A stretch of DNA of 31,821 nt, taken from a virus. Below are positions 4,190 through 31,451 of this stretch, piece after piece. The DNA lies in the IMG/VR virus record IMGVR_UViG_3300032223_000593, positions 1 to 31,821 of that record. One strand, 5' to 3'. The notes beneath the pieces were generated by a model that was not told the DNA's origin, made no database searches, and worked only from the letters and a program-made list of their open reading frames with translations. The translations under genes and the position numbers were made by a program. How positions within the stretch are numbered: position 1 is the stretch's first letter; every line of letters begins with the position of its first letter.

Positions 4190-4218
4190 ATCCCCGCTTA
4201 AAACGTGGGGATTTTTTT
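4190..4218 (+). terminator. Rho-independent terminator for the + strand block
   Basis: ATCCCC (4190-4195) pairs with GGGGAT (4207-4212) and is followed by seven T residues (4212-4218), the standard intrinsic-terminator form on the + strand. On the - strand no T-tract follows the stem, so the signal works mainly for the replication block. Its T-tract contains the complement of the stop codon of the 2133-residue gene on the other strand, so the two convergent blocks abut without spare sequence. Confidence 0.8.
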
Positions 4219-7200
4219 ATTTTTCAGGGACAATTCTTTCTCTTGCTGGATATAAATAAGGTTCAAGTTCTTTAGGCATATACTGCCCTCTATAAGTACG
4301 CTTACTTTTTTCTCTTGCGGCATCAATAGATTCTCTTATTGTGCTTGGAAGTATGGCAAGTTTTTTATTTGGGTATCTCTCATTATGCTTATCTATCTCG
4401 TCTAAAATCTTTTGTGTATCTTTTTCATCTTTAGAATTAGATATTAATGTTTCATTTAATTTATTTAATAAAGCTTGTTTTTCATTTCTAGCAATTGTAA
4501 TTTCTCGATTAGATTTAAACCCTTCTTCTTGTAGTCTAGATAATTTAGTTGGTTGAAATCCAATAGCTTGCCCAAGAATATTCATGCTGCTTAGTTCTTC
4601 AGGTTTAAGAATACTTTCCCCACGCCTAATTTCTGCGCCTTCAGTCGCTAACCTATAAGCAACTATTGGGTTTTTAAATAAAGCAGGCACCATTCTTTCT
4701 AAAGCTCTTAGAGTATGCCCATTATTAAAATCATCCAGTCCACCTACAATATCTAAACCTTTTGAAACGCCCGGACCTAAATTAGCTATCAAAAAGTTTT
4801 GAACTGCTTCTGCATCTGTTTTGCTAACTTTACCAGAATCTCTAATCCACATACCATCCATAGATGTACGTGAGCCTATATTTAACCCACTAATAGCAGA
4901 TATAGGACCTTTTTCAAGCATCTCCGCATACTTATCCCCAAACATTTCAGGTAGTATTTCTTGACGGAAACGCAAATCAAAGTTATCTGAAGTTATAGGG
5001 TTTTGAAGTCTACGTTTTCTTCTTGCTTCTTCAGCATCATCACCACCTATATTATTTAAAGTAGCATCAATAGCGGCACATATTACGCTATATAAAGGCA
5101 TACCAACTAAACCATGAAATAAACCACCCATAGCTAAAGTACCAGTAAGGCGTTTCATTGCGGCTTGTTTATCTGCCCAAGTTTCACCAGCAAAACTATT
5201 GTATCCGTTACGTACTAGATATGAAGTTACGTTGAAAGCATACATTTTAAACTGCCCTAACGTTTTACCAACAAAATTACGTAGAACTGTAGGTCTACTC
5301 ATGTTGTCATACCTACCTAATAACTCGTAGGTTTTATCTACAGCCTTTTGTACCGCACCTTCAAAATCTTTTGTCTTTGCATATTCAGCTTCAAATATCA
5401 TCATATAAGTCATCTCTCTACTTATACGTTCGGCACCATTAAACAACCCAGACATAGCATTTAAAGTCTGTCTTCCAGCATTTTGCGCAAAGTTATCGTA
5501 AGAGTTATCGGGAGTCCTACCTTTATTAGTTAGTACTGCAGTATTAGTAGCAGTAGTAACACCTCTTGCAATAGCCTCATCAAACGCATCACTTAAAAGT
5601 CTACTTTCTTTTACAAATTTAGAATCACCTACAGATACGCTGCCTTTTTCAACCCCTAAAGAACCCCATAGAGCAGAATATTTAGCAAATAAAACACCGC
5701 TTTTTACTGAGCCGTAATCCGCCCACATATTTGGCAGTACCATAATAGGTATAGATGCAAGCTGTACAGCGGCTGAAGCGGGGGCAGTTAATAACCAGTA
5801 GTATGCAAATTGATTTACTAAAGCAGAAACAGTTCCCGGTTCAGGTGGATTAAGTTCTGCCCTACCTCTAGCAGCCATTTCATCAATAATTTCGCCATAC
5901 TTACTTTTATCTGCTAACGGCATACCCTGTAAAGAATCTTTGGCTCTTTCTATTTCCGCTTCTATTTCATCGCCATACTGTAACTTAGATGCTTGCGCTG
6001 CAATTCTATTTGCAGACGTTTTAAAGTTACGAAATATATCTGCACTAAAACCAGTAATATTATCTGCAGTTATAAACTGTTTGCGAAAACTTCTTTCTGG
6101 CATAGTACGTAGGTAAGTTTGATATAGCTCATCTTTAATAGTTTCTACGTCTACATTACCTTTTTCAGCGGCTTTATCTATGATAGCAAACATATCTTTT
6201 AAGGCTTGAGTAACTTCATGCCCTGAATTACGCATAGTAGTTATATCGTTTCCAACGTTAAATCTTTCATTTACTTCGTCTTCACTAAGCCCTAACTTTT
6301 CTGCTCGTTCTTGTGCAAATAAATTACGTGCAGTACCTGTATCAAATAGGTAAAACTCTCTGCCAGTAGGTCCTTTAGATATACTCAACCAATAAATACC
6401 ATCACGCATAAATGGAAAATACTCGGTAATCTTACTTTCTTCTTGCATCTTTCTTATTGCAGACAAGAGTACTTTTTTATCTTCTCCAGGTAATTGCAGT
6501 CTATTGATTTTTGAATCTAATAGCCCACGAACCATATCCATATTATCTGCATAATATTTTTTAACCATAGCGTATAGTTCTTTACCTTTAGGGTCTAGCT
6601 TATCCCAATATTCAAAAACTCTTTCTATGCCGTTTTCTCTTAATGTAATTTGACCTCTAATAGATGGTAAGCTTTTTGAATCAGTTGCTGGGTCGCTAAG
6701 TTTAGCATTTAGTTCTTTAAGTCTTTTGTCGTTAAACATAGCGTCAATTTTATTTTTAAACCCCATAGGGCTTACACCTTCTAGCCGTGCTAAATGCATA
6801 GTAGCAGCTAGGTTTTTCATGTTATCTTTACCTGCTCTAATATATGCGCCTAGTTTATCTGCTTTAATAGCGGCATCTTTTAAAATTCTAGCTCTTGATG
6901 TAGCCATACGTTGGGTAATAGTATCCATGTCTTTTAAACCGGGTATTTTATTACCTATCCAACGCATAATATCTGCAGTTGGTAAAGTACGTGCAATATT
7001 TCTTACAGCACCATCATCAAACGCAGTCCATCTTGCATCTAATATTCCTTTAATCTCATCAAAACTATGAGCGTCTTTTATTAAAGAAATTGTAGATTTA
7101 TTCATTTCTGTAGCGCTTTGAGATATTTCTAGTTGTTGTATTGCCTTGGCTATTCTTTTTTGTTTTGGTTTTTTGTTAAAACTTACAGATTCTAGTTTGG

Positions 7201-10200
7201 CATCAACAGGCTTTTCGGCTAATAACCCGCTACCAAGCAGTAATAAATCTTGCATAGCAGATTCATGTTTAGCATCCATACCTAATGCATTACGTAGTGT
7301 ATTTGCAAACTTAGTAAATAAAGAACCAAAGAAACCGGGAGAACCTTGTTTAGCTGCGCCGGGAGTAGTTAAAAGAAAACTTATTACACCCTCATCAGAT
7401 AACCCATAAGCTAAAAACTCTTTAGCATCATCAAGTATATTAATGCCGCCTACTTCTTCTTCGTTAAACAAAAAGCCCAGTTGTGTATTAAATTCTTCTC
7501 CATTAGCCCTACGAGTGTCATATGCGTCTTTAACTCTATCCATTAAATCAAATAAGTTATCGTACAAAGCCTGCACTTGTCGAGATGGTGTACCCCCACG
7601 CATTATAGTAACTGCATACTGCTCAATCATACTATCTAGTGCGGCATGTAGAGCCTCGTGTATAACAGTAGTATTGTTAATACCATGCATATCAGGGGGG
7701 CCAAAACCCTCCCCACGAACATATATCATTTTTTTAAGGCTACCATCAGGAAGTTTAATAGTAACCATTGCACCATTAGCAGTTCCATCTTCAGTTATTA
7801 TTTCTGATAAAGGGGTACCTTTTATGGTTATCCCAGCTAAATCAGTTTTAGAATTAACAACTATAAACCCAACGTTTTTCATAAAAGGTTTAAGAGCACG
7901 TATTAATGTGCGCTCAAATGCAGTTCCAGTTTTGCTCGCTATATTTAATGCTTGTTCTGCAGTGGTTATATTTTCGCCATTAAAGGCAGTATTAGGTTTG
8001 CTATTAGTTGTCTGAGATTTACTAGCTTTAGTTAAAAGTTGTTTAGCTCGTTCTATTGCTGATTTTAATTTTGGTTCAGCTTCAGTTTTGTTTTTTGCAT
8101 CTATAGCAGCTCTTTGTTCAGGAGTTAGTTTTGCTCGTTCTGTTCTACGTGCATCAAGCACTCGTCTTTCTTCTTCAGTTATACCAGCAATAATTTCTGC
8201 TGCTTTTTTACCCGCGGCTCTATCTCTTGCTACACCTTTAGCAATATCGTCTAATTGTCCTAATAAACTAATACGTGCGGCTCTATGTTCTTGTTTTTTA
8301 TCAGCACTCATTTGTGCTACTTGGGAAGCACGTTCTGTATTTTGTTTAAGGCTTTCTATTAATTTAATAATATCTCTTACTTCTTTTTTATTTGCCGCAG
8401 ACTGTTGAGCTTTAGTTGCAGCGGCGGCGGCTATTTGTTCGGGTGTTTTTTCAACCTTTGGTCTACCACGAGTTTCTTGCAACTTAGCTATTACATCTTT
8501 AGCTGTATCTTCTTCGGTTACTTCAACATTATTGTCTGTAGCTAGTTTTGTTAAGTCTGCATTAGGCATTTCGCCTTCAGGGAATGAATACCCCCTATCA
8601 ACTGCATCTAGTACTTCATTTAGTTTTGAAGGTATTATAGCTTCTGTAGTAGGTACAATGTTTGATGGCGGAGAGATAGCCTCTCTTAAAGCTTGTATTG
8701 CTCTTTCGTTAAACCCTTTACCTGCTTCTGGCATAGGTATACGTAGCATATTCAACATACCTTTTAATTTAGAAGCATTTGGTTTTTCTACCTTAGAATC
8801 TAATTTAGTTAAATAATCTACAGCGGTTTGTTGTACTACTTGTTGGGTTGTACTTAGTGTACCTTGTTGTACATTTTGCAGTGGCGGCGTTCCTGTTCCA
8901 GCCCCTCCAACAGGTTCGATATTATTTGCCAGTCCAGCAGTGACAGGTGTTGTAAGTTCTTGGGTGTTGACTGTTCCTTGTCCAGACACAGGAACGCTTG
9001 ACTCAGTTCCTCCGGTGATAGTTCCAGGACTCGTTCCATTTGTGGCTCCTAGTTGGTTTAAAGGTATGATTGGTATCGGTGCACCATCTGCTGATACTAC
9101 TGGCGGTGTAGTTGGCGGGGTTACTGGTGGTGTGGGAGGCGCTACAGGTGGTTCTGTATTATCCGTTGTTTTTTGATTTATACTTTCTTGGGCGGCTTCT
9201 ATTGCTTCTTCATCAGTTAAAGATGGAGTTTTTAATTTTAGGTCTAGTGCTACTTGAGTTAACTCAGCTTGAGCGGCAGCCTCCACAGGAGACATGTTAG
9301 GATATTTTTTAGTCAGCGCTTCAGTTATAGTTATTATTTGGTTTTGTTTTTTTGCAGCTTCTTGTTCAGGAGTTAAAACAGGGGGTATTACTTCTCCACT
9401 TGGGGCTATAGCACTAGTAAGTCCTACATGCCCTGCACCGCCTACTCCACCACCAACAGCTTCAGCAGCGGCGGCATTAATTACTCTTTTTATATTAGCC
9501 CAATCTGTATAGCCTTTATCTTGTTCTTTTAAAGCTTTTTCACCTGCAATACTCATAAGTTCTTGAGCACCACCAGTTAACCCTTCTTCACCAATACTTC
9601 TAGGTAATTCTTTTACCGTTTGTTTAGTAAGCTCTTCTTTTGTAAGTGCTTTAGCCCCTACCTCTAAAGTTTCTTTTGCAACTTTTGCCCTTAATATAGC
9701 GCCTACTGGACCTGTAACAGAATCTAATGCGCCGCTAGCAATTGCTACAGACATAGAAACATTCATTGTTTTATTTACATACTCTTGTATTTTATTTGCT
9801 TGCTCTTCAGCAGTCAGCCCTTTCATCTCTGGCTGTTTCATTAAATGTTCTACACGATTGCCAAACTGTTCTCCAGTACTCATCCCTATACCAACAAGCC
9901 CAGCACCTAATGCACCGGCGGGGGTTAAAGAAGCCGCTACTATAGGTAGTAGTTGTACGCCAGCAGAACCTGCATTAAATGCTAACCAATTTCCAAAGTC
10001 TTTAAGTCCTTCAACATCGGTTAAATCTGTAGTTTTACCTTTGTACTTTAACGCATCTTTTTGATATTCTTGCACGGCTTTTTGTGCCTCTACAATCATA
10101 CCTTCTCTATTTTTAATAGTAGTACCCATTTCAGCTCGCATATTTTCACGGGCTTCTGGCGCTAAGTTTAAATATGTTTTTGCCATATCAAAAGACATAC

Positions 10201-10618
10201 CAGCTTTTTTAGCATCTTCTGGAGTTTTTATTTCTCCAGCATCAATCTGGTCAAACATTTTTGTATTATTTATAGCGGTATTAATAAGCGAGGAATCTAC
10301 ACCTACACCTACGTTTTGATACATGTTTTTTAGACCTATAGCGCCAGATACTATACCTTTACGGGCTTCGCTTAATCCAGGAATAGGAGATAACATATCT
10401 AATGCATCTGTAGCTCTAGATAAAAATCCTGGTTTTTCTTCTTCTTTTTGTTTAGCTAACCATTCTTCGGGGTTAAGTATACCGGCTTGTTTTTCTTCTT
10501 TTGTAGGTTGTTTTTGAGCAAGCCATTCTTCAGGGCTCGGTATACCAGTTTGTTTTTCTTTAACTTGCTCTTTTACTTGTTGAGCAAGCCATTCTTCAGG
10601 GTTAGGTATAGTAGCCAT
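4217..10618 (-). CDS. Giant ejection-type polyvalent virion protein with HExxH zinc-peptidase motif
   Basis: A 2133-residue protein, the last gene of the - strand block. From the N-terminus: three copies of a PEEWLA motif (residues 4-55), small-residue-rich helical segments, a Pro/Thr linker near residue 485, an RGRPK AT-hook-like motif at 717-721, and Lys/Gln-rich coiled segments. Next is a peptidase-like domain with HEALH (H987, E988, H991) and a downstream KEFLAYGL whose E1067 is a plausible third zinc ligand. The C-terminal third is helical; its hydrophobic stretches (about 1605-1630 and 1825-1860) flank a segment (1720-1806) that resembles the LPD38 domain of large polyvalent phage proteins. 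Such proteins travel in the virion and enter the cell with the DNA, like the T7 gp16 ejection protein, although no transglycosylase motif is visible here. It follows the 754-residue gene with a 1-nt TAATG overlap. The role is inferred from size, context and motifs. Confidence 0.85.
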   Translation of the reverse strand: MATIPNPEEWLAQQVKEQVKEKQTGIPSPEEWLAQKQPTKEEKQAGILNPEEWLAKQKEEEKPGFLSRATDALDMLSPIPGLSEARKGIVSGAIGLKNMYQNVGVGVDSSLINTAINNTKMFDQIDAGEIKTPEDAKKAGMSFDMAKTYLNLAPEARENMRAEMGTTIKNREGMIVEAQKAVQEYQKDALKYKGKTTDLTDVEGLKDFGNWLAFNAGSAGVQLLPIVAASLTPAGALGAGLVGIGMSTGEQFGNRVEHLMKQPEMKGLTAEEQANKIQEYVNKTMNVSMSVAIASGALDSVTGPVGAILRAKVAKETLEVGAKALTKEELTKQTVKELPRSIGEEGLTGGAQELMSIAGEKALKEQDKGYTDWANIKRVINAAAAEAVGGGVGGAGHVGLTSAIAPSGEVIPPVLTPEQEAAKKQNQIITITEALTKKYPNMSPVEAAAQAELTQVALDLKLKTPSLTDEEAIEAAQESINQKTTDNTEPPVAPPTPPVTPPTTPPVVSADGAPIPIIPLNQLGATNGTSPGTITGGTESSVPVSGQGTVNTQELTTPVTAGLANNIEPVGGAGTGTPPLQNVQQGTLSTTQQVVQQTAVDYLTKLDSKVEKPNASKLKGMLNMLRIPMPEAGKGFNERAIQALREAISPPSNIVPTTEAIIPSKLNEVLDAVDRGYSFPEGEMPNADLTKLATDNNVEVTEEDTAKDVIAKLQETRGRPKVEKTPEQIAAAAATKAQQSAANKKEVRDIIKLIESLKQNTERASQVAQMSADKKQEHRAARISLLGQLDDIAKGVARDRAAGKKAAEIIAGITEEERRVLDARRTERAKLTPEQRAAIDAKNKTEAEPKLKSAIERAKQLLTKASKSQTTNSKPNTAFNGENITTAEQALNIASKTGTAFERTLIRALKPFMKNVGFIVVNSKTDLAGITIKGTPLSEIITEDGTANGAMVTIKLPDGSLKKMIYVRGEGFGPPDMHGINNTTVIHEALHAALDSMIEQYAVTIMRGGTPSRQVQALYDNLFDLMDRVKDAYDTRRANGEEFNTQLGFLFNEEEVGGINILDDAKEFLAYGLSDEGVISFLLTTPGAAKQGSPGFFGSLFTKFANTLRNALGMDAKHESAMQDLLLLGSGLLAEKPVDAKLESVSFNKKPKQKRIAKAIQQLEISQSATEMNKSTISLIKDAHSFDEIKGILDARWTAFDDGAVRNIARTLPTADIMRWIGNKIPGLKDMDTITQRMATSRARILKDAAIKADKLGAYIRAGKDNMKNLAATMHLARLEGVSPMGFKNKIDAMFNDKRLKELNAKLSDPATDSKSLPSIRGQITLRENGIERVFEYWDKLDPKGKELYAMVKKYYADNMDMVRGLLDSKINRLQLPGEDKKVLLSAIRKMQEESKITEYFPFMRDGIYWLSISKGPTGREFYLFDTGTARNLFAQERAEKLGLSEDEVNERFNVGNDITTMRNSGHEVTQALKDMFAIIDKAAEKGNVDVETIKDELYQTYLRTMPERSFRKQFITADNITGFSADIFRNFKTSANRIAAQASKLQYGDEIEAEIERAKDSLQGMPLADKSKYGEIIDEMAARGRAELNPPEPGTVSALVNQFAYYWLLTAPASAAVQLASIPIMVLPNMWADYGSVKSGVLFAKYSALWGSLGVEKGSVSVGDSKFVKESRLLSDAFDEAIARGVTTATNTAVLTNKGRTPDNSYDNFAQNAGRQTLNAMSGLFNGAERISREMTYMMIFEAEYAKTKDFEGAVQKAVDKTYELLGRYDNMSRPTVLRNFVGKTLGQFKMYAFNVTSYLVRNGYNSFAGETWADKQAAMKRLTGTLAMGGLFHGLVGMPLYSVICAAIDATLNNIGGDDAEEARRKRRLQNPITSDNFDLRFRQEILPEMFGDKYAEMLEKGPISAISGLNIGSRTSMDGMWIRDSGKVSKTDAEAVQNFLIANLGPGVSKGLDIVGGLDDFNNGHTLRALERMVPALFKNPIVAYRLATEGAEIRRGESILKPEELSSMNILGQAIGFQPTKLSRLQEEGFKSNREITIARNEKQALLNKLNETLISNSKDEKDTQKILDEIDKHNERYPNKKLAILPSTIRESIDAAREKSKRTYRGQYMPKELEPYLYPARERIVPEK
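10454..10609 (-). repeat. Three PEEWLA repeats at the N-terminus of the giant protein
   Basis: Residues 4-12, 26-34 and 47-55 read IPNPEEWLA, IPSPEEWLA and ILNPEEWLA, separated by charged Lys/Glu/Gln linkers of 12-13 residues. The matching DNA (10583-10609, 10517-10543, 10454-10480) differs in several bases between copies, so the peptide rather than the DNA is what has been kept. Short linear motifs repeated on a flexible N-terminus usually serve as docking sites. Confidence 0.8.
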
Positions 10619-14765: not shown

Positions 14766-15041
14766 TTAAACAGTACTTCCGCTAGCGTTTTTCCACACCG
14801 TGCCGTTGTACCAAATGGGAATACTTAAACTTGTATCGTAATACATTTGACCTATTTGAAGCTGTAACGTAGGTCTGTTCGCTGTTGTTCCAGACTGTGG
14901 TGTAATAAGTCCAAGTACTGCGTTATCTACTGTATTAAAGTAAAGCGTTAAAATTTGCTCAAGCTGGTCCATAAACAACTTGTTATACTCAAGTGGAGCC
15001 GCAGGTAGTCGAGGGTTTTTAGTATTAATTAACGCAGTCAT
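14766..15041 (-). CDS. Small virion/fibre-type structural protein
   Basis: A 91-residue protein with an N-terminal helical part (LEYNKLFMDQLEQILTLYFN) and a C-terminal GQMYYDTSLSIPIWYNGTVW. The second resembles the YxDTTLxxPIWWNGTxW element found at the ends of phage fibre and tail proteins. Its ATG overlaps the stop codon of the upstream HNH-AP2 gene by 1 nt (TAATG), and 34 nt separate it from the next structural gene. The exact position in the virion is unknown. Confidence 0.75.
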   Translation of the reverse strand: MTALINTKNPRLPAAPLEYNKLFMDQLEQILTLYFNTVDNAVLGLITPQSGTTANRPTLQLQIGQMYYDTSLSIPIWYNGTVWKNASGSTV

Positions 15042-15661
15042 TATCTACCCGCCCAATGTATACGCTCTAATTCTTTGCGGGCAATAGCGGCTTCTTCCGC
15101 CGTATCAAAAACTTTTGAGTAATATTTTTTCTTTTGAACAGTTATACATGCATAATATTTATTATTGTGAAATAAAACTCCAGTTAGACCTGTTTTGCTG
15201 GTTTTTGGCGCTTTAATATTTCTAGCTTGAGTAGTTGGAGAAGCCCATCTACAGTTTGATATTTCATAATTCCCAGACGGATTAATTCTATCTAAAGTTT
15301 CATTGCCTTGAGGTTCACCCATGCATTGTGCAAAATTTGCATAATCCAACCATTCTGGACAAACGGCTATCCCTTTAGCGCCATAACGCTTGTAATCTTT
15401 ATCTTTAGGATTTGTGCATCTTCTAATCATTGCTCGCCATGTATTGTAAGAACTTTTTTTCCATCCACCGTGTTTAAAATTTGGGATTATACAACCGCAT
15501 GATTCTGTATTCCCCGTTACCAAACTACCAGCTACAACATCTATAAAATTACCACATTCACACTTGCATTTCCATAATACTTTTTTTAAATTATTACGAC
15601 CTGCTTGCTCCACTACCGTTAACTTGCCAAACTTTTGTCCTGCACGGTCTATGAATTTCAT
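15041..15661 (-). CDS. HNH homing endonuclease with AP2 DNA-binding domain
   Basis: A 206-residue selfish endonuclease. The N-terminus has a zinc-binding WKCKCECG...SCGC cluster (C32, C34, C36, C55, C57). The HNH region follows (YGAKGIAVCPEW at 93-104, then DRINPSGNYEISNCRWAS from 124 on), and residues 158-203 form an AP2/ERF-like domain (TGVLFHNNKYYACITV...FDTAEEAAIARKELE). This domain order is typical of mobile HNH-AP2 genes that cut a homing site and copy themselves into it. It lies between the gp10-like gene and a 91-residue structural gene; its stop overlaps the start of the latter. It has a very strong ribosome binding site (AAGGAGGA, 15666-15673) and a promoter-like sequence upstream, so it may be expressed independently of the structural transcript. 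Confidence 0.92.
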   Translation of the reverse strand: MKFIDRAGQKFGKLTVVEQAGRNNLKKVLWKCKCECGNFIDVVAGSLVTGNTESCGCIIPNFKHGGWKKSSYNTWRAMIRRCTNPKDKDYKRYGAKGIAVCPEWLDYANFAQCMGEPQGNETLDRINPSGNYEISNCRWASPTTQARNIKAPKTSKTGLTGVLFHNNKYYACITVQKKKYYSKVFDTAEEAAIARKELERIHWAGR

Positions 15662-24243: not shown

Positions 24244-24738
24244 TTACAAAACTATCCAGCGTTGACCAGAACTAACAGTAACCGACTGCCCACTTGCTAC
24301 CGTAATTGGACCAGCTGAAATAGCGTTACTTCCTGTAGGCACTGTAAAAGATGCAGATACCGTAGCGTTGTTTAATAAAAGACCATTACTAGCATTAAAT
24401 GCCGGTGAAAATGCCGTGCCTGTTGTAGCATCTTGGTTTACACTTCGGCTTGATGGGTACGTAATAAATACGTTTACTGTTCCTGAGAACGTAACTGCAC
24501 TTCCAGAGTTAGACGAAGCATAGACTGTGGTTCTTGTTAAAGTTGGTCCAGTTGTTGAGTAACTTCCTAACCCCGTTTCCCAATTGCCCGAAGCATCAAA
24601 TGCGGAGTAATAGGTTGTGTTTCCGTTTCCAACCCCCGCCAAAGATTGAAATCCTGTAACTGTTCCTGTTAAAGTAAAGCTAATGGTAGTATTACTACTC
24701 CCAGTTTGTTGTGAACGGTCAAGCAGCACCAAAGCCAT
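24244..24738 (-). CDS. Small beta-rich virion protein
   Basis: A 164-residue protein. The segments TGFQSLAGVGNGNTTYYSAF, NWETGLGSYSTTGPTLTRTT and GTVNVFITYPSSRSV form a pattern shared by many environmental-phage structural proteins of unknown exact role. No signal peptide, coiled coil or catalytic motif is visible. Its ATG overlaps the stop of the upstream GIY-YIG gene by 1 nt and it is followed 11 nt later by the 377-residue fibre gene. A fibre-base or adaptor role is possible. Confidence 0.78.
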   Translation of the reverse strand: MALVLLDRSQQTGSSNTTISFTLTGTVTGFQSLAGVGNGNTTYYSAFDASGNWETGLGSYSTTGPTLTRTTVYASSNSGSAVTFSGTVNVFITYPSSRSVNQDATTGTAFSPAFNASNGLLLNNATVSASFTVPTGSNAISAGPITVASGQSVTVSSGQRWIVL

Positions 24739-25319
24739 TATTTATTTCCTAACAATTCTTTTGACCACGTATAACCTTTATGGCATTTCTCTTTGCCATT
24801 TGCGCAATTATATATGTGTTGCGCTGTAAACCCTGCGTTTCCCATAGCTTTTTTACCAATTATGCTAATTACCTCACCAGTATTTATATTGGTGCCAATA
24901 AATTTAAATTGTGTTTTTAAAATCATTTGCTTTTTAATTGTTTCTGCAGAATGTTTTCTACCAACCCATTGTGTATTACCTTTATTGGCTAAACTAATTT
25001 TTGCTTTTGTTTCTTTGTTGCAGGGTATTCCTTTATTCCAAGGTATTGTTCCTAAAGAACCTTCTCCTCCATCTGTCATGTTGCATAGTTTATACCCCAT
25101 ATCTTTAAAACAAGATATTAAAATAATTTCATGGTCCAGTGCTTCTTTGTTGGTATCCCATGTGGCTAATATTTGTACTTTAGGTTTTCCATATTTTGCA
25201 ACAACCCTATGCCAATACTTGTTTCTGCCTTTTAAGGAATTTGCACGATACTCCCCACTGCCCTTACCTATGTAAAATAAGCGACCTTGTGGGGTATAAT
25301 GGGCGTATGTATAAAACAT
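24738..25319 (-). CDS. GIY-YIG homing endonuclease
   Basis: A 193-residue homing endonuclease. The catalytic domain runs from residue 3 (YTYAHYTPQGRLFYIGKGSG, the GIY...YIG pair in modified form) to the conserved glutamate region EALDHEIILI (E64). NUMOD3-type DNA-binding helices follow (KETKAKISLANKG and SAETIKKQM, residues about 102-132), and the C-terminal FIGTNINTGEVISIIGKKAM, then FTAQHIYNCANGKEKCHKGYTW, resembles the NUMOD1-type element. It is inserted between the 259- and 164-residue structural genes. Its stop codon overlaps the next start by 1 nt. Homing would copy it into related phages that lack it. Confidence 0.92.
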   Translation of the reverse strand: MFYTYAHYTPQGRLFYIGKGSGEYRANSLKGRNKYWHRVVAKYGKPKVQILATWDTNKEALDHEIILISCFKDMGYKLCNMTDGGEGSLGTIPWNKGIPCNKETKAKISLANKGNTQWVGRKHSAETIKKQMILKTQFKFIGTNINTGEVISIIGKKAMGNAGFTAQHIYNCANGKEKCHKGYTWSKELLGNK

Positions 25320-26122: not shown

Positions 26123-26542
26123 CTAGTTAAGAATAATAACAGCCGTTGTAGATGTAGCTGTTGGAAAAGTTACAGTAAAATTGCCTGACGCTATTTTATC
26201 AGACCCAAAATCTAATACACATACAGCCGCATTTGTAGTCCCATTATAAATCAAAGCACCCCTAGCAGTAAAGGATGCGCCGGTCCAAGTAACATTATTA
26301 AATGAAATATATGCTGAATTATTGCTAGTGCTACTTGCTGGCGGGATGTTGGTTAGGGTTTTTCCTCCGGCGGTGTATCCCGCTCCAGAAACCTCATTGG
26401 AAGTACTATAAGCAGTAGTTGTATTGTCCAGATTAGCCAGAGATGTATAAAGTGCAATTTTATAGGTTCCACTAGTAAAGTTCTCCAATCCATTCAACAG
26501 ATTCTGTTTAAATATGGTGCATTGACCTTGTGTAAAACTCAT
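26123..26542 (-). CDS. Beta-rich virion protein
   Basis: A 139-residue protein. The segments GTYKIALYTSLANLDNTTTA, NEVSGAGYTAGGKTLTN, FTARGALIYNGT and AVCVLDFGSDKI define a family common in phage structural regions (KxALYT...AYxxxNEVSGxGYTAGG) whose function is not known to me. It overlaps the HNH endonuclease stop by 4 nt (ATGA) and precedes the 259-residue gene by 8 nt. A tail-tip or adaptor role is plausible. Confidence 0.78.
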   Translation of the reverse strand: MSFTQGQCTIFKQNLLNGLENFTSGTYKIALYTSLANLDNTTTAYSTSNEVSGAGYTAGGKTLTNIPPASSTSNNSAYISFNNVTWTGASFTARGALIYNGTTNAAVCVLDFGSDKIASGNFTVTFPTATSTTAVIILN

Positions 26543-27075
26543 ACTATAACCTCAAACTTATTTAATTTTGCAGAGTTTTCAGACAGCCGCATTGGCTGTA
26601 AATTACTAGGCACATGTAGTCCAGACACCAATTCGCCTTGCAATGGAATAATATGGTCAATAGTCCATTTTTCTTTGTTTTCACGAGTAAGCATTGTGGC
26701 TATAGCATACATACATTTAATTTTTAATCTGTCAAAATCAGTCAACCAAGACGGTGTTCTTTGTATTCTAGCGGCTCTTCTTTTTGCTGTTGTGGTCCGT
26801 CTAACAATGTAGCCAGCCAATGTACTTTCGTATTTTTTTATTGCTCTTATACGACTTTGTTTGCCTTCTATAGATTGTGAATATGTTTTTTCTGTCTGCT
26901 TTCCTTTTTCCGACCATCTATACTTTTGTTGTCTAGACACTCTATTAATATGTGCCGTAGGGTTTGTCATCTCCATTACATATTGGCATTTTTTACAGGT
27001 ATGTCTATGCCCGTTAGAATGTTTTTTAAATTCTATCAACTCTTTATTCACCAAACATTTTTTACAGGTTCTCAT
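26539..27075 (-). CDS. HNH homing endonuclease
   Basis: A 178-residue endonuclease. Two cysteine pairs at the N-terminus (C4, C7, C27, C30) form a zinc finger, a long basic helical linker follows (about residues 45-110), and the C-terminus has the HNH core: IDHIIPLQGELVSGLHVPSN, then LQPMRLSENSAKLNKF, with D140 and H141. It lies between the adaptor gene (2 nt upstream) and a small structural gene whose ATG overlaps the endonuclease stop by 4 nt. It is unlike the other two endonucleases in the window, so the three were acquired separately. Confidence 0.92.
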   Translation of the reverse strand: MRTCKKCLVNKELIEFKKHSNGHRHTCKKCQYVMEMTNPTAHINRVSRQQKYRWSEKGKQTEKTYSQSIEGKQSRIRAIKKYESTLAGYIVRRTTTAKRRAARIQRTPSWLTDFDRLKIKCMYAIATMLTRENKEKWTIDHIIPLQGELVSGLHVPSNLQPMRLSENSAKLNKFEVIV

Positions 27076-27077
27076 AA

Positions 27078-27803
27078 TTAAATTACGCCTCCTTTTGGAG
27101 CTGCGTTTAATTTTAACATCCCATCTCTATAACTATCACCACGTTCAAGAGCATCGCACAGTCTACGTAATTCATTCATTGCTTCAGTATATTTAGCTGT
27201 ATAGAAAGTGATAATATCCTGTTCCGCCTTCATAAAAATAGCGGCTTCTAACAAGCAACCATAGAGTAAAACAGGGTCATAGTTATCACCAAGCCAAGAC
27301 TCACCAGCAGTAACAATAGATGCTGGATAATAAAAATAATGCATTTCAACCTGATAATTAGCATCAGGTGTAGGTCCTAGGATATAAGACAATGCATTTG
27401 CATTATTGTATTGTGTACCAAATAAAGCGTAATACTTAGGTGTTCCACTAGCGGCTGGGTAAGGATAAGCCTCACGGATAAAGTTAACATCTTTATTTAA
27501 AAGATACGTATAAGGCACCGTAAGGTCATTAGTATAAACAGCGACAGAATAAGCTGATAACCAATCAGTCGGTAAAGATAGGTATTGATTTCCAGAACTT
27601 ACAGTACCTGTTACGTTTCTTCTTAAAGCCGGTATATTTATAGAGTTATAAATACGTGTTTCTGCTTGGGTAATAAATGTATTAACTTGGGTATTACTTG
27701 CTGTTGTTACAGTCGTAGTTCCATCAGTCCCAGTAAATGTAGTACTTGGGAATTCGTTTTCACAATACGTTTTTATTGTATTGAATAACGTTGTATAGTT
27801 CAT
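27078..27803 (-). CDS. Head-tail adaptor, SU10-type
   Basis: A 241-residue protein. The start MNYTTLFNTIKTYCENEFPS and the later FITQAETRIYNSINIPALRR, LSLPTDWLSAYSVAV and YDPVLLYGCLLEAAIFMK are the pattern of the SU10-like phage adaptor class that sits between portal and tail. Length is normal. It overlaps the following small gene by 1 nt and ends 2 nt before the HNH gene. With the 244-residue protein at 29.1-29.8 kb it probably forms the head-tail connection. Confidence 0.8.
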   Translation of the reverse strand: MNYTTLFNTIKTYCENEFPSTTFTGTDGTTTVTTASNTQVNTFITQAETRIYNSINIPALRRNVTGTVSSGNQYLSLPTDWLSAYSVAVYTNDLTVPYTYLLNKDVNFIREAYPYPAASGTPKYYALFGTQYNNANALSYILGPTPDANYQVEMHYFYYPASIVTAGESWLGDNYDPVLLYGCLLEAAIFMKAEQDIITFYTAKYTEAMNELRRLCDALERGDSYRDGMLKLNAAPKGGVI

Positions 27804-28048
27804 TAAGCCATTGGTCCCATAGCTTTTCTACCACGCTCTGCTGCGCCATTACCACGAGTTTCTAAACCCTCGTTTTTAACTTCTTTAAATGGTCCCTTAG
27901 TAACATAGCCTACTGAGATATTCATTTTATTAAGATAGTCATTACCAGATTCCATAGACATATTAGGCAGCTCATTACCTACAGATTTACCATCCATAGT
28001 ATGTGGTTTTGCATAAACTCCGGCGGGTTTGTTGTTAATTTTAGCCAT
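27803..28048 (-). CDS. Small basic protein with C-terminal TRGNGAAERGRKAMGPMA
   Basis: An 81-residue protein. The N-terminus is Lys/Gly/Asn-rich with no recognised fold, and the C-terminus is LETRGNGAAERGRKAMGPMA. The same kind of ending (TRG or IRG, then G.A..G.KA.GPMA) is found on small proteins of many environmental phages. It shares the TRGxGxA core with the three tagged proteins nearby. The function is unknown; its place between a basic small protein and the adaptor suggests a virion component. Confidence 0.75.
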   Translation of the reverse strand: MAKINNKPAGVYAKPHTMDGKSVGNELPNMSMESGNDYLNKMNISVGYVTKGPFKEVKNEGLETRGNGAAERGRKAMGPMA

Positions 28049-28261: not shown

Positions 28262-28639
28262 TTAACTGATTGTTACACTATTAGTCACACCTGTTGATTG
28301 TAATGCATTTGGTGTTTCATTAAAATCGTATTTCATACCTACAGGGTTCCATCCCCATTGAATCTGTCTACTACCACCACTAGGAAACCCGCTAACATCA
28401 TAACCTGACTGGTAATAACTATTATCTCTACGTGGCTCTCTTACTGCTTGTGGGTCATTTACCGGATACATGCCTAATTGCAACTGCGGCTGGTCCATTT
28501 CCCAACACTCGTGACATACTTTAATACTGACATTTTTTGTCTTAATAGTCAACTTCTTTAGCTCTGTAAGCTTATATCTAAACCCACATCTATCGCACTC
28601 GGCAATAGCAAACTTGCCAGACGAGAACATCGTAGTCAT
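28262..28639 (-). CDS. Small protein with four-cysteine zinc ribbon
   Basis: A 125-residue protein. CDRCGFRY (C15, C18) and CHECWE (C42, C45) form a typical zinc ribbon of the kind seen in phage structural proteins (CxRCGFxY ... CxxCWE). The C-terminal half is Pro/Gly/Asn-rich, with QIQWGWNPVGMKYDFNETP. It overlaps the upstream gene by 4 nt. It is probably a virion protein, since this family appears next to head-tail adaptors; the exact role is unknown. Confidence 0.78.
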   Translation of the reverse strand: MTTMFSSGKFAIAECDRCGFRYKLTELKKLTIKTKNVSIKVCHECWEMDQPQLQLGMYPVNDPQAVREPRRDNSYYQSGYDVSGFPSGGSRQIQWGWNPVGMKYDFNETPNALQSTGVTNSVTIS

Positions 28640-29088
28640 TTTCTAGCCTTGCCGTATCCGCGCGTTGCTAATTTACCAGCAACTTTTGGTTTAGCCGAAT
28701 TACTTTTTGATTTAACCGAACCGCCTTGGTTAAATTCTGTTTTATAGCCAACTTCATATCTTGGTTGCATTGGACTATTTAATGGTTTAATGATTTTTCC
28801 ATAAAATCCAGATGGATGTTCGTATGTAGCGTCTATTCCACCTATTTTATTAATCTGTCCTACTGGAGTATCAACATTGATGCCCGTAGCGCCTAGATTT
28901 AACTTCCCCTTTTTATCCGCATATTCCCCTCCAACGCGTGCCAAATGTCCCGGAATTGATGGTCCCATATCAGGATTATGAGGAAATGCTCCTGCACTAA
29001 TAGAAACGGGAAGATAATTTGAGTCTATATTTTCGTCATCCGTTTCACGAAGTTTTTCATTTGCTCGTTCTGATAAACTTTTAGCCAT
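28636..29088 (-). CDS. Virion-associated protein ending in the KVAGKLATRGYGKA tag
   Basis: A 150-residue protein. Residues 50-115 are an ordered beta-type region (LARVGGEYADKKGKLNLGAT, then GQINKIGGIDATYEHPSGFY), followed by a linker with FNQGGSVKSKS and the terminal KVAGKLATRGYGKARK. The last 14 matched residues are identical to those ending the proteins at 30170-30418 and 31149-31451. It overlaps the next gene by 4 nt and starts 1 nt after the gp4-like gene. Function unknown. Confidence 0.75.
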   Translation of the reverse strand: MAKSLSERANEKLRETDDENIDSNYLPVSISAGAFPHNPDMGPSIPGHLARVGGEYADKKGKLNLGATGINVDTPVGQINKIGGIDATYEHPSGFYGKIIKPLNSPMQPRYEVGYKTEFNQGGSVKSKSNSAKPKVAGKLATRGYGKARK

Positions 29089-29089
29089 T

Positions 29090-29824
29090 TTAACTATTCC
29101 CTAAATAGGTCATTCTAGGTATAAAACGAATCGGTGCCTTCTCACGGTCTTCTTCAGAGGCAAATTGGAACTGCTGTTCATAATCTTGTTTTAAACCCAT
29201 AACCCTATTAACGTCCATATTAGGAAGTTTTAAAGACAAGTAATAAGCTAAACCAGCCACCATACAAGGCAGCCAACGAAACGGAATATCTTGGGTATTT
29301 ACAGCATTACCAGCGTCCTGTATACGGCGCATACGCCAATAAACAAAGGTATAGTAGTTAGACTGGTCAGGGGTGGGCCAAACTGTGACTTGAGGGCTTC
29401 TATCAGGTGTTGCACCGGTAGGGTAGGTTGCGCCAGACTGCCTATTAATCCATACTTGAATTGGTCTTCCCTGCGCTAGTTTATTAGGGATTGTAGAGTA
29501 GGTAGATATACTGATGCGACTGATGGTGATATCGGTTTGATTGTTAGTTTGTCCAGCATTTGTTCTAATCTGGTGTTCCAATAAATCAATCGTATCCGTA
29601 GGTAAGTCGTAAGTGTTAGTACCCTGCACCATTGGTATAGTGCCTTGTTCAATTGTCCAAAGATTAATTCCACGGTTTGCCCATTCAATAGTTAGTAAGT
29701 TTAAAGAACGTCTTGCTGTACGAAAGTCATAACCAGAGCGCAACTCTTGACCACACCTCTCAAATGCTTCTTCAATAAGGTCTGATAAGTCTAGATTAAA
29801 TGCACTGGTTCCAGTTGTTGTCAT
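29090..29824 (-). CDS. Head-tail connector/tail-accessory protein, P22 gp4-like
   Basis: A 244-residue protein. The helical start LIEEAFERCGQELRSGYDFR, then TARRSLNLLTIEWANRGINLW, matches the first helices of P22 gp4-like accessory proteins common in environmental podovirus-like phages. It continues with DLPTDTIDLL and VTVWPTPDQSNYYTFVYWRM, and a helical C-terminus FRWLPCMVAGLAYYLSLKLP. It should join portal to tail. Its ATG overlaps the stop of the 41-residue gene upstream (ATGA). The family assignment rests on pattern recognition. Confidence 0.8.
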   Translation of the reverse strand: MTTTGTSAFNLDLSDLIEEAFERCGQELRSGYDFRTARRSLNLLTIEWANRGINLWTIEQGTIPMVQGTNTYDLPTDTIDLLEHQIRTNAGQTNNQTDITISRISISTYSTIPNKLAQGRPIQVWINRQSGATYPTGATPDRSPQVTVWPTPDQSNYYTFVYWRMRRIQDAGNAVNTQDIPFRWLPCMVAGLAYYLSLKLPNMDVNRVMGLKQDYEQQFQFASEEDREKAPIRFIPRMTYLGNS

Positions 29825-29946
29825 TTTGGAAACTCAAATATTAATCTTACAATTAAAAAATCAAACACAAGCATGTCGCAATCATCTTCATGTACTATCT
29901 CTGTGCCTAACATAACGCCTTTAATGAAATGGATATATAGCGTCAT
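29821..29946 (-). CDS. 41-residue small phage protein
   Basis: This short gene runs ATG 29946-29944 to TGA 29823-29821 and overlaps the start of the gp4-like gene by 4 nt (ATGA), which is the local style. The product begins MTLYIHFIKGVMLGTEIVHE and ends in FDFLIVRLIFEFPK. KGxMLGxE...LxxDLLIVRxxF is a pattern I know from other small phage proteins of unknown function. A stop-start overlap and no alternative gene in the gap 29825-29951 support it. The amphipathic to hydrophobic C-terminus may bind membrane or another protein. Confidence 0.7.
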   Translation of the reverse strand: MTLYIHFIKGVMLGTEIVHEDDCDMLVFDFLIVRLIFEFPK

Positions 29947-29951
29947 TTTAA

Positions 29952-30173
29952 TTACCTTTTTTTAGCCGTCTTTGCTGAATTGGTGAAATCCATACTGGTT
30001 GGTGCGCCTTTACTTCCGGGTTTGCGCATTTTTTCTTTAGAGCCAGCGGCAATACGAGCTTGCTTTTTATGGATATTTTCATATAAACCGCCCTTCTTTA
30101 ACAGCACTGCTGACTCACTTGTCTTAGGTATTTTTTTAGGGGACATTGCTCCCATACCACGACTAGCTTTCAT
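29952..30173 (-). CDS. Small basic protein with GLYENIHKKQARIAAG motif
   Basis: A 73-residue, Lys/Arg-rich protein. The central KKGGLYENIHKKQARIAAGS, then KEKMRKPGSKGAPT, followed by FTNSAKTAKKR, is a conserved pattern of small proteins in environmental phages. The ATG overlaps the upstream stop by 4 nt, and the next gene starts 5 nt downstream. The charge suggests nucleic-acid or capsid-interior binding. Function unknown. Confidence 0.75.
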   Translation of the reverse strand: MKASRGMGAMSPKKIPKTSESAVLLKKGGLYENIHKKQARIAAGSKEKMRKPGSKGAPTSMDFTNSAKTAKKR

Positions 30174-30418
30174 TTTGCTTTACCATACCCACGAGTAGCT
30201 AGTTTACCAGCGACTTTACCACCCTTTTTGTACTTGTCGCCCATAGGATTCGTAGTCTCACCAGTATCTGGCTTACCTACTATATTTTCTTTAGCTTCGT
30301 TTAATTTCTTCCCTAGCCTAGTTTTACTCATAGACTCTTCGGCGGCTTTGTTTTCCGCTTCAGTACCCATAATGTTTTCTTTAAGGCGAGTAATAGGGTT
30401 ATTGGATTTGCTTGGCAT
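30170..30418 (-). CDS. Small protein ending in the KVAGKLATRGYGKA tag
   Basis: An 82-residue protein. The N-terminal half is helical and charged (ITRLKENIMGTEAENKAAEE and KTRLGKKLNEAKENIVG), a short linker follows, and the C-terminus is YKKGGKVAGKLATRGYGKAK. The body shares nothing obvious with the two other tagged proteins. It lies 2 nt after the His-rich gene and overlaps the following gene by 4 nt. Function unknown; a virion or assembly component is inferred. Confidence 0.75.
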   Translation of the reverse strand: MPSKSNNPITRLKENIMGTEAENKAAEESMSKTRLGKKLNEAKENIVGKPDTGETTNPMGDKYKKGGKVAGKLATRGYGKAK

Positions 30419-30420
30419 AA

Positions 30421-30606
30421 TTAAGCCTTTCCGCCCATATACATAGTTTTTACGTGCTCGTGGTGTAACTTATGACCTGCTGCGTGGTCTTTAAAAAAGT
30501 TATGGTGTGGCTTATGACCTGCTTCGTGTGCTTTAGTAGCCTCTTCATGCATTTCATGTTTTACAACAGCTTGTTCTGTCATTACTTTTGCGTGGTCCAT
30601 TTTCAT
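30421..30606 (-). CDS. Histidine-rich small protein
   Basis: A 61-residue protein with 12 histidines. Start ATG 30606 has an AGGAGA site 5-6 nt upstream; the longer open frame from 30675 would overlap the upstream gene, so it is not preferred. HEAGHKPHHNFFKDHAAGHK continues with LHHEH, so a HxAGHKxHH unit occurs twice. This composition suits divalent-metal binding, or pH-dependent charge change. The end MYMGGKA carries the GG motif of its neighbours. No family recognised. Confidence 0.72.
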   Translation of the reverse strand: MKMDHAKVMTEQAVVKHEMHEEATKAHEAGHKPHHNFFKDHAAGHKLHHEHVKTMYMGGKA

Positions 30607-30619
30607 ATCTATCTCCTGA

Positions 30620-31147
30620 TTAGCAAACTTTACCTTTAGTTTTACCTTTAGACTCAATACCACCACCCTTAGCAAAACTCATATTTTTAACCTTACCCAT
30701 TTTAGGAGAACCAATAGCAGCCTCTTTAGGTGCTGGCTTCTTAGCGCTCATAGTATCTTTAACTTTTTCCATCTTTGCTGGCATCATACGTGTTTCAGCT
30801 TTTCCACCTTTTTTCATACCTAACATCCCCATAGATTTGGATTCGGGCATTATACCCTGTTTAGAAATACCTTTCGGTAACTGTTTATTCGTTTCTTTTT
30901 GAATCTTTGCACCTGAACTAGCCATACCGCCTCCTTTAAAAAGCGCCGTAGCGCCATGATTAGTTTTTTTCTTGTTTATAACTTGTAGCTCTGCGCTATT
31001 TTGTCCACCACTAGAAAACTTTTTACCCTTATCAGCTTCACTAAAATCTTTTCCTACAGACTGCGGCACTCCAGTTTTTTTAGCGAATGTTTTATTATGC
31101 GCTATTGCATTCATAAAGTCATGTTGTTTTTTACTTGAGCTTGGCAT
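30620..31147 (-). CDS. Lys/Gly-rich protein with N-terminal SKKQHDFM motif
   Basis: A 175-residue basic protein. The start at ATG 31147 is preferred: it lies 1 nt after the upstream stop, has GGAAGG 9 nt before it, and gives the familiar beginning MPSSSKKQHDFMNAIAHN (MPxxSKxQxxxM, as in DUF3008-like proteins). GVPQSVGKDFSEADKGKKF follows. The rest is low-complexity Lys/Gly/Met-rich with three GG motifs (FKGGG, MKKGGK, FAKGGG) and ends SKGKTKGKVC. Probably a disordered, nucleic-acid-compatible virion or assembly protein. Confidence 0.72.
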   Translation of the reverse strand: MPSSSKKQHDFMNAIAHNKTFAKKTGVPQSVGKDFSEADKGKKFSSGGQNSAELQVINKKKTNHGATALFKGGGMASSGAKIQKETNKQLPKGISKQGIMPESKSMGMLGMKKGGKAETRMMPAKMEKVKDTMSAKKPAPKEAAIGSPKMGKVKNMSFAKGGGIESKGKTKGKVC

Positions 31148-31148
31148 A

Positions 31149-31451
31149 CTATCTTGCCTTCCCATATCCTCTAGTCGCTAATTTACCAGCGACTTTACCA
31201 CCTTTTTTCATTGGTTTGATTTTAGAATCTTTATCAGCGCCAAGCACCTCTTTGAGACCTTTATGACTATCATCTCTAGGCTTCATTACACCTTGGTCTA
31301 GCCCACCATCAGGTGGTCTTAGTGCTTCATATTCATTTTTTTCATTAGGCATAAGCAAACCCATTACATTAGGGCGCCGTGTTCTTACAACTCCAGAATC
31401 TTTTGTTTTTCCAGATTTAATTTCACTTGCTATATTATCTATATCAGCCAT
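31149..31451 (-). CDS. Small protein ending in the KVAGKLATRGYGKA tag
   Basis: A 100-residue protein. ATG 31451 is preferred because it follows the upstream stop by 1 nt, whereas the longer frame (from 31472) overlaps that gene. The N-terminal part has RTRRPNVMGLLMPNEKNEYE, then ALRPPDGGLDQGVMKPRDDS, a mixed sequence with no recognised fold. It ends MKKGGKVAGKLATRGYGKAR. The same 14-residue end recurs at 30170-30418 and 28636-29088. Function unknown. Confidence 0.75.
   Translation of the reverse strand: MADIDNIASEIKSGKTKDSGVVRTRRPNVMGLLMPNEKNEYEALRPPDGGLDQGVMKPRDDSHKGLKEVLGADKDSKIKPMKKGGKVAGKLATRGYGKAR

Follow-up and report, generated by a model that had tools for sequence, protein, structure and literature searches.

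Two interchangeable C-terminal peptide tags on unrelated small proteins in a clade of tailed phages from aquatic bacteria

The window analysed here is the whole of a 31.8-kb IMG/VR virus record. It is probably a genome fragment, because none of its genes was recognised as coding for capsid, portal or terminase; a gene for an SU10-type adaptor is present. Three small genes on the minus strand (Table 1) encode proteins that end in KVAGKLATRGYGKA plus one or two basic residues, as the initial annotation had claimed with correct coordinates for the peptide (31155–31196, 30176–30217 and 28645–28686). The ends read MKKGGKVAGKLATRGYGKAR (31149–31451), YKKGGKVAGKLATRGYGKAK (30170–30418) and SAKPKVAGKLATRGYGKARK (28636–29088), so that two of the proteins share a stretch of 19 residues (KKGGKVAGKLATRGYGKA[RK]), of which the other one has 14. 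The remaining parts of the proteins had been described as unrelated. This agrees with our comparison within the record, in which similarity was confined to the C-terminus (query residues 79–100 and 73–100 of 100 only) and no full-length homology of the three proteins was found. None of them matched a Pfam, PHROGs or NCBIfam profile at a meaningful E-value, and an AlphaFold prediction for the 28636 protein with one relative gave a mean pLDDT of 41.5, too low for the model to be of use.

Table 1. Genes and terminal motifs of the tag locus and related features in the window.
Feature	Position	Strand	Remarks
Tagged small protein 1, 100 aa	31149–31451	-	No relative of the body found; matches to relatives run only through the tag
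Class II C-terminal tag KKGGKVAGKLATRGYGKAR	31152–31208	-	End of the 31149–31451 protein
QHNFM-module protein, phrog_16759	30620–31147	-	In relatives, tagged with class I or class II
Degenerate class I-like C-terminus FAKGGGIESKGKTKGKVC	30623–30676	-	End of the 30620 protein
Tagged small protein 2, 82 aa	30170–30418	-	C-terminal body segment DTGETTNPMGDKYKKGGKV; class I tag on that segment in relatives
Class II C-terminal tag KKGGKVAGKLATRGYGKAK	30173–30229	-	End of the 30170–30418 protein
Small protein, N-module MKASRGMGxxxPKKxPK and LYENIHKKQ body	29952–30173	-	N-module on several other bodies in relatives
Head-tail adaptor (SU10_adaptor)	29090–29824	-	Clade marker, adjoins tag genes
Tagged small protein 3, 150 aa	28636–29088	-	Body related to a segment of the L230 1894-aa polyvalent protein
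Class II C-terminal tag KVAGKLATRGYGKARK	28639–28686	-	End of the 28636–29088 protein
'ad2', conserved neck-region gene beside the adaptor	28262–28639	-	Tree follows tag class with fewest changes
Small protein, looser C-terminal motif LETRGNGAAERGRKAMGPMA	27803–28048	-	Tag-system membership uncertain
Polyvalent protein, 2133 aa	4217–10618	-	LPD39; C-terminal half like P1 DarB-type antirestriction protein

The triplets quoted earlier for TRGYGK in the three genes are correct, but the divergence is less extreme over all 14 codons of the tag. Pairwise, 8/14, 7/14 and 4/14 codons are identical, and AAA-GTC/T-GCT-GGT-AAA is nearly common to the three copies. The mean codon identity of about 0.45 equals the value found between genomes (0.449, see below), so no recent copying of DNA is needed. 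The peptide is conserved and the DNA is not, in line with the proposal that selection keeps the peptide. Recent gene duplication was ruled out, since the bodies are unrelated and the tag codons are as unlike as between genomes.

Between two of these genes lies a gene for a protein with an N-terminal QHNFM module, whose degenerate class I-like end had escaped the initial annotation. The module forms the N-terminus of the 'virion structural protein' families phrog_22033 and phrog_25121. It comprises about 50 residues and is common to the clade described below and to phiKZ-like jumbo phages; PHIKZ165.1, a stand-alone hypothetical protein in phiKZ, shares 71% identity with the 30620 protein over residues 1–51. 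Besides the C-terminal tags there is a second shared module, which is N-terminal (M[KMR][AP]SRGMG[AD]..P.K.PK, then a GG linker). It occurs on at least five bodies beside genes with C-terminal tags, its carriers being the window protein at 29952–30173 and proteins of L132, L232, L284, L285 and L295. Outside this cluster, a NUMOD3-containing protein of the homing-endonuclease type (24738–25319) is inserted among tail genes, and two regions without a Pfam match (15041–15661 and 26539–27075) resemble further HNH-type insertions.

Beyond the window, the tag of the three proteins, here termed class II, has the consensus xVAGKLATRGYGxA[RK]. An exact degenerate 32-base pattern for GKLATRGYGKA matched 17 viral stretches, and this recurrence of the core excludes a chance origin of the shared peptide; two looser patterns matched 62 and 66 viral stretches. 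After identical proteins had been merged, 63 distinct class II proteins were counted in IMG/VR, which fall into 28 unrelated body clusters (BLAST with bodies cut free of the tag). The carriers of tags are mostly 60–300 aa long and are not large multidomain polyvalent polypeptides. In five class II carriers (L042, L048, L054, L056 and L074) the segment DLSGDGKVTQKD lies upstream of the tag and resembles an EF-hand or dockerin calcium loop.

Variants of the class II tag led to a related C-terminal motif, class I, with the consensus KxGG...R[GA]DGxAxRGKT[KR]G[KR]xx-COOH. A scan for RGDGxAxRGxTxG yielded at least 133 class I proteins in at least 52 body clusters, and the RADG variant is also common. 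That the core residues do not vary follows from the search pattern itself. The distance to the stop codon was left free by it, as no stop codon was required; yet 130 of the 133 matches listed have precisely three residues between the end of the motif and the stop. Both tags are basic and glycine-rich, and a [YFM]KxGG linker stands between body and tag. The initial annotation was thus right in spotting one tag but overlooked a second one, with which it is interchangeable.

A common host peptide was ruled out as the source of the tags. AGKLATRGYGxA had no match in 84,980 bacterial and archaeal genomes, and class I had three matches in the genome collection, two of them on phage contigs of the same clade. 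The tag peptides alone matched no named family, and PDB searches with the capsid alignment, the adaptor and both tags gave no match. A tblastn search of phage and plasmid records with the tag by itself gave no match either, but is uninformative, since short low-complexity queries may be filtered and Pag-Yong1 does have a class I-type C-terminus.

Nearly all carriers of the tags belong to one clade of tailed phages, with DSL-LC04, Pelagibacter phage HTVC023P and Planktothrix phage Pag-Yong1 as relatives; the carriers are viruses of freshwater and marine bacteria. Virion-module references (DSL-LC04, HTVC023P, CRP-902 and Pag-Yong1) were found via the adaptor of the window and searched in all tag contigs. 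The same virion module was present on 206 of 211 contigs (81/83 for class II and 125/128 for class I among the matches listed). In Pag-Yong1 itself, protein UMO75986.1 has a class I-type C-terminus (GRDGCAKRGRTKGRFI). When loci were instead sampled via the capsid protein (best 80 by capsid identity, unbiased for tags and biased for clade breadth), 31 of the 34 loci with capsid and adaptor have at least one and up to five class I-type tags, in the relaxed definition used for this count. Every tag gene is co-directional with the virion module. Most lie between the major capsid gene and the adaptor gene, others between portal and GroES, between terminase (TerL) and portal, or between adaptor and next gene. 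The expectation that the carriers adjoin head-tail genes was therefore borne out, the neighbours being head-neck genes.

The tag is genuinely modular, gene ends being exchanged as units at the KGG junction. The segment DTGETTNPMGDKYKKGGKV, part of the 30170 protein, is followed by the class II sequence AGKLATRGYG in the window and in L102, and by the class I ends SSASKRADGCC or RSSASKRADGCC in L318, L327 and relatives. Likewise, either tag class is found on the same body in the DTGETTNPMGDKY-KxGGKV family, and a body common to L024 and L316 has a different tag class in each. Among proteins of the QHNFM family, those of L044 and L060 end in class II and those of L016 and L211 in class I, and the window protein has its degenerate class I form. 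The SFCARM...RINKSLRAWNC family is untagged in most genomes; in L261, L277, L289 and L292 the tag simply prolongs the protein beyond its last residue, a pure extension of the C-terminus.

The tagged bodies are hypervariable. In a count that leaves out the QHNFM family, 27 of 50 tagged bodies were without a relative in any of the 33 further genomes sampled, compared to 39 of 262 untagged neighbours (p = 1.4e-8). Their median net charge is +5. The 28636 body has one relative, a segment of a 1894-aa protein (L230:2345–8029) with ART-PolyVal and GH108 lysozyme domains, whose gene lies between terminase and portal. At several apparent domain borders of this polyvalent protein, [YFM]xxGG motifs are found. 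Iyer et al. (2017, PMC5512222) proposed that polyvalent proteins of phages are packaged and injected. The window phage itself encodes a polyvalent protein of this injected type (4217–10618), which starts with three [IL]xxPEEWLA[QK][QK] repeats, a candidate N-terminal packaging signal.

Both strict classes were never found on one contig. Contigs with at least two strict tags (10 for class II and 14 for class I) are never mixed, some of these contigs being near-copies. This exclusivity is not absolute, because the 30620 protein has its degenerate class I end inside a class II genome. Tag class follows phage phylogeny, with 4 changes on the adaptor tree compared to 28.3 with shuffled labels. Tags on different bodies are more alike in amino acids within than between genomes (0.853 versus 0.751, p = 0.013; 0.807 versus 0.735, p = 0.0035; permutation), with codon identities at identical residues that differ only slightly in the same direction (0.492 versus 0.449 and 0.484 versus 0.42). 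A co-evolving receptor would produce such a likeness; shared genome ancestry also contributes. The earlier idea of a routing tag that is under selection and serves one partner is strengthened by the tag swapping and by the single class per contig.

We propose that the peptides are C-terminal sorting tags, whose free C-terminus (xVAGKLATRGYGxA[RK] in class II or R[GA]DGxAxRGKT[KR]G[KR]xx in class I) would be recognised by a component of the head or neck during late assembly. Connected to the tag by the flexible [YFM]KxGG linker, unrelated and fast-diversifying small proteins would thus be loaded into the virion and probably be ejected together with the DNA. To such a virion-loading signal for probably ejected cargo, comparable to those of T4 and P1, we assign a probability of roughly 0.5; incorporation, partner and ejection are inferred here from sequences and gene order. 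A wider version is more tentative: the tags may be a general C-terminal 'zip code' of this aquatic clade, with two exclusive and interchangeable codes, a head or neck receptor co-evolving with them and a quickly changing arsenal of small effectors loaded into the particle.

The main rival to loading into the virion interior is a location at the neck, where the tagged proteins would be minor structural or assembly factors with their C-terminus docked on adaptor or portal; the initial annotation had already named the connector as an alternative to the capsid interior. Such a neck or connector tag would fit the genes that lie between major capsid and adaptor or behind the adaptor. It would also fit the trees, which match tag class best for adaptor and ad2 (2–3 changes versus 7 for a neighbouring gene on the same contigs), and to that extent they count against loading. 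The better fit is slight, however, and too weak to name the receptor; as adaptor and ad2 are the nearest neighbours, proximity alone could explain it. Since some carriers are encoded elsewhere, between portal and GroES or between TerL and portal, and since hypervariable bodies in numbers of one to five per genome are unlike structural neck proteins, we consider this explanation unlikely. Another property that speaks against loading is the composition of the tags: a peptide rich in lysine, arginine and glycine could bind DNA. The tag might then be a nucleic-acid-binding tail that holds on to phage DNA or RNA, while the bodies, themselves of positive median charge, bring varied activities to the genome or its transcripts. 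A fixed distance to the C-terminus, coherence of class on each contig and a near-invariant sequence including aspartate and tyrosine nevertheless exceed what charge would need, and no family match was found, which makes this explanation rather improbable.

The C-terminal position and the GroES gene in the same module would likewise suit a regulatory signal for a protease or a chaperonin, e.g. the GroES system of the phage, that controls stability or folding of late small proteins. We regard this as quite improbable, as a host factor would not explain why the tags are restricted to one clade with two codes that switch together; moreover, we know of no resemblance of the tags to ssrA-like or MuA-like degrons. 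Least probable by far is a recombination scar or linker, in which DNA homology at gene ends aids the exchange of cassettes and the peptide has no function. Although the swapping at the KGG junction would be expected from it, DNA-level homology would be needed, whereas codons at identical residues agree to only about 42–49% within and between genomes, and two amino-acid codes are kept instead of the DNA.

Loading into the virion by a terminal peptide has parallels in other systems. The capsid-targeting sequence (CTS) of T4 (IPI–IPIII) resembles the tags in that one short peptide occurs on unrelated, variable small proteins. It is, however, N-terminal, while the tags described here are C-terminal, glycine-rich and basic and form two classes; we know of no sequence resemblance between the two. 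The cargo-loading peptides of encapsulins are short and C-terminal, follow a flexible linker, are found on unrelated cargo and bind a shell with the HK97 fold. Position, linker and unrelated bodies make them the closest C-terminal analogy, although encapsulins are bacterial compartments and the likeness is one of description. In phage P1, no more than the first 30 residues of DarB are needed to bring a reporter into the head (PMC9024508). The Dar system thus has a terminal loading peptide and anti-restriction cargo, and a DarB-like C-terminal region occurs in a window protein; but the DarB signal is N-terminal, and the Dar proteins have no common consensus (PMC9024508), whereas the tag peptide is common to dozens of proteins. 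That the signals of both T4 and P1 are N-terminal is a further point against the loading reading. Polyvalent proteins are linked to the tags by the 28636 body, which is part of one in L230; they are giant and multidomain, whereas the carriers are small, separate and share only the tag.

A text search of PMC5512222 found no mention of KGG, of a short motif or of a C-terminal motif. The literature was also searched for the class I peptide and for tags at the C-terminus, without result, most subscription journals being outside this coverage. In the literature searched, a clade-wide tag system with two codes and concerted switching appears to be undescribed, whether its partner sits in the neck or in the capsid interior. 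If it is a code for cargo, it would be the first C-terminal one that we know of in tailed phages.

Should the tag prove to be a virion-loading signal, travel in the particle could be predicted for every phage protein that ends in it, and a large number of unnamed small genes would become a readable list of candidate injected effectors for anti-defence or host takeover. It would also offer a short peptide that, placed at the C-terminus, takes proteins into phage particles, in contrast to the N-terminal signals of T4 and P1. The natural swaps between the two codes offer a ready route to the receptor. If the zip-code reading is true, gaining the tag would be enough to make a new cargo gene deliverable.
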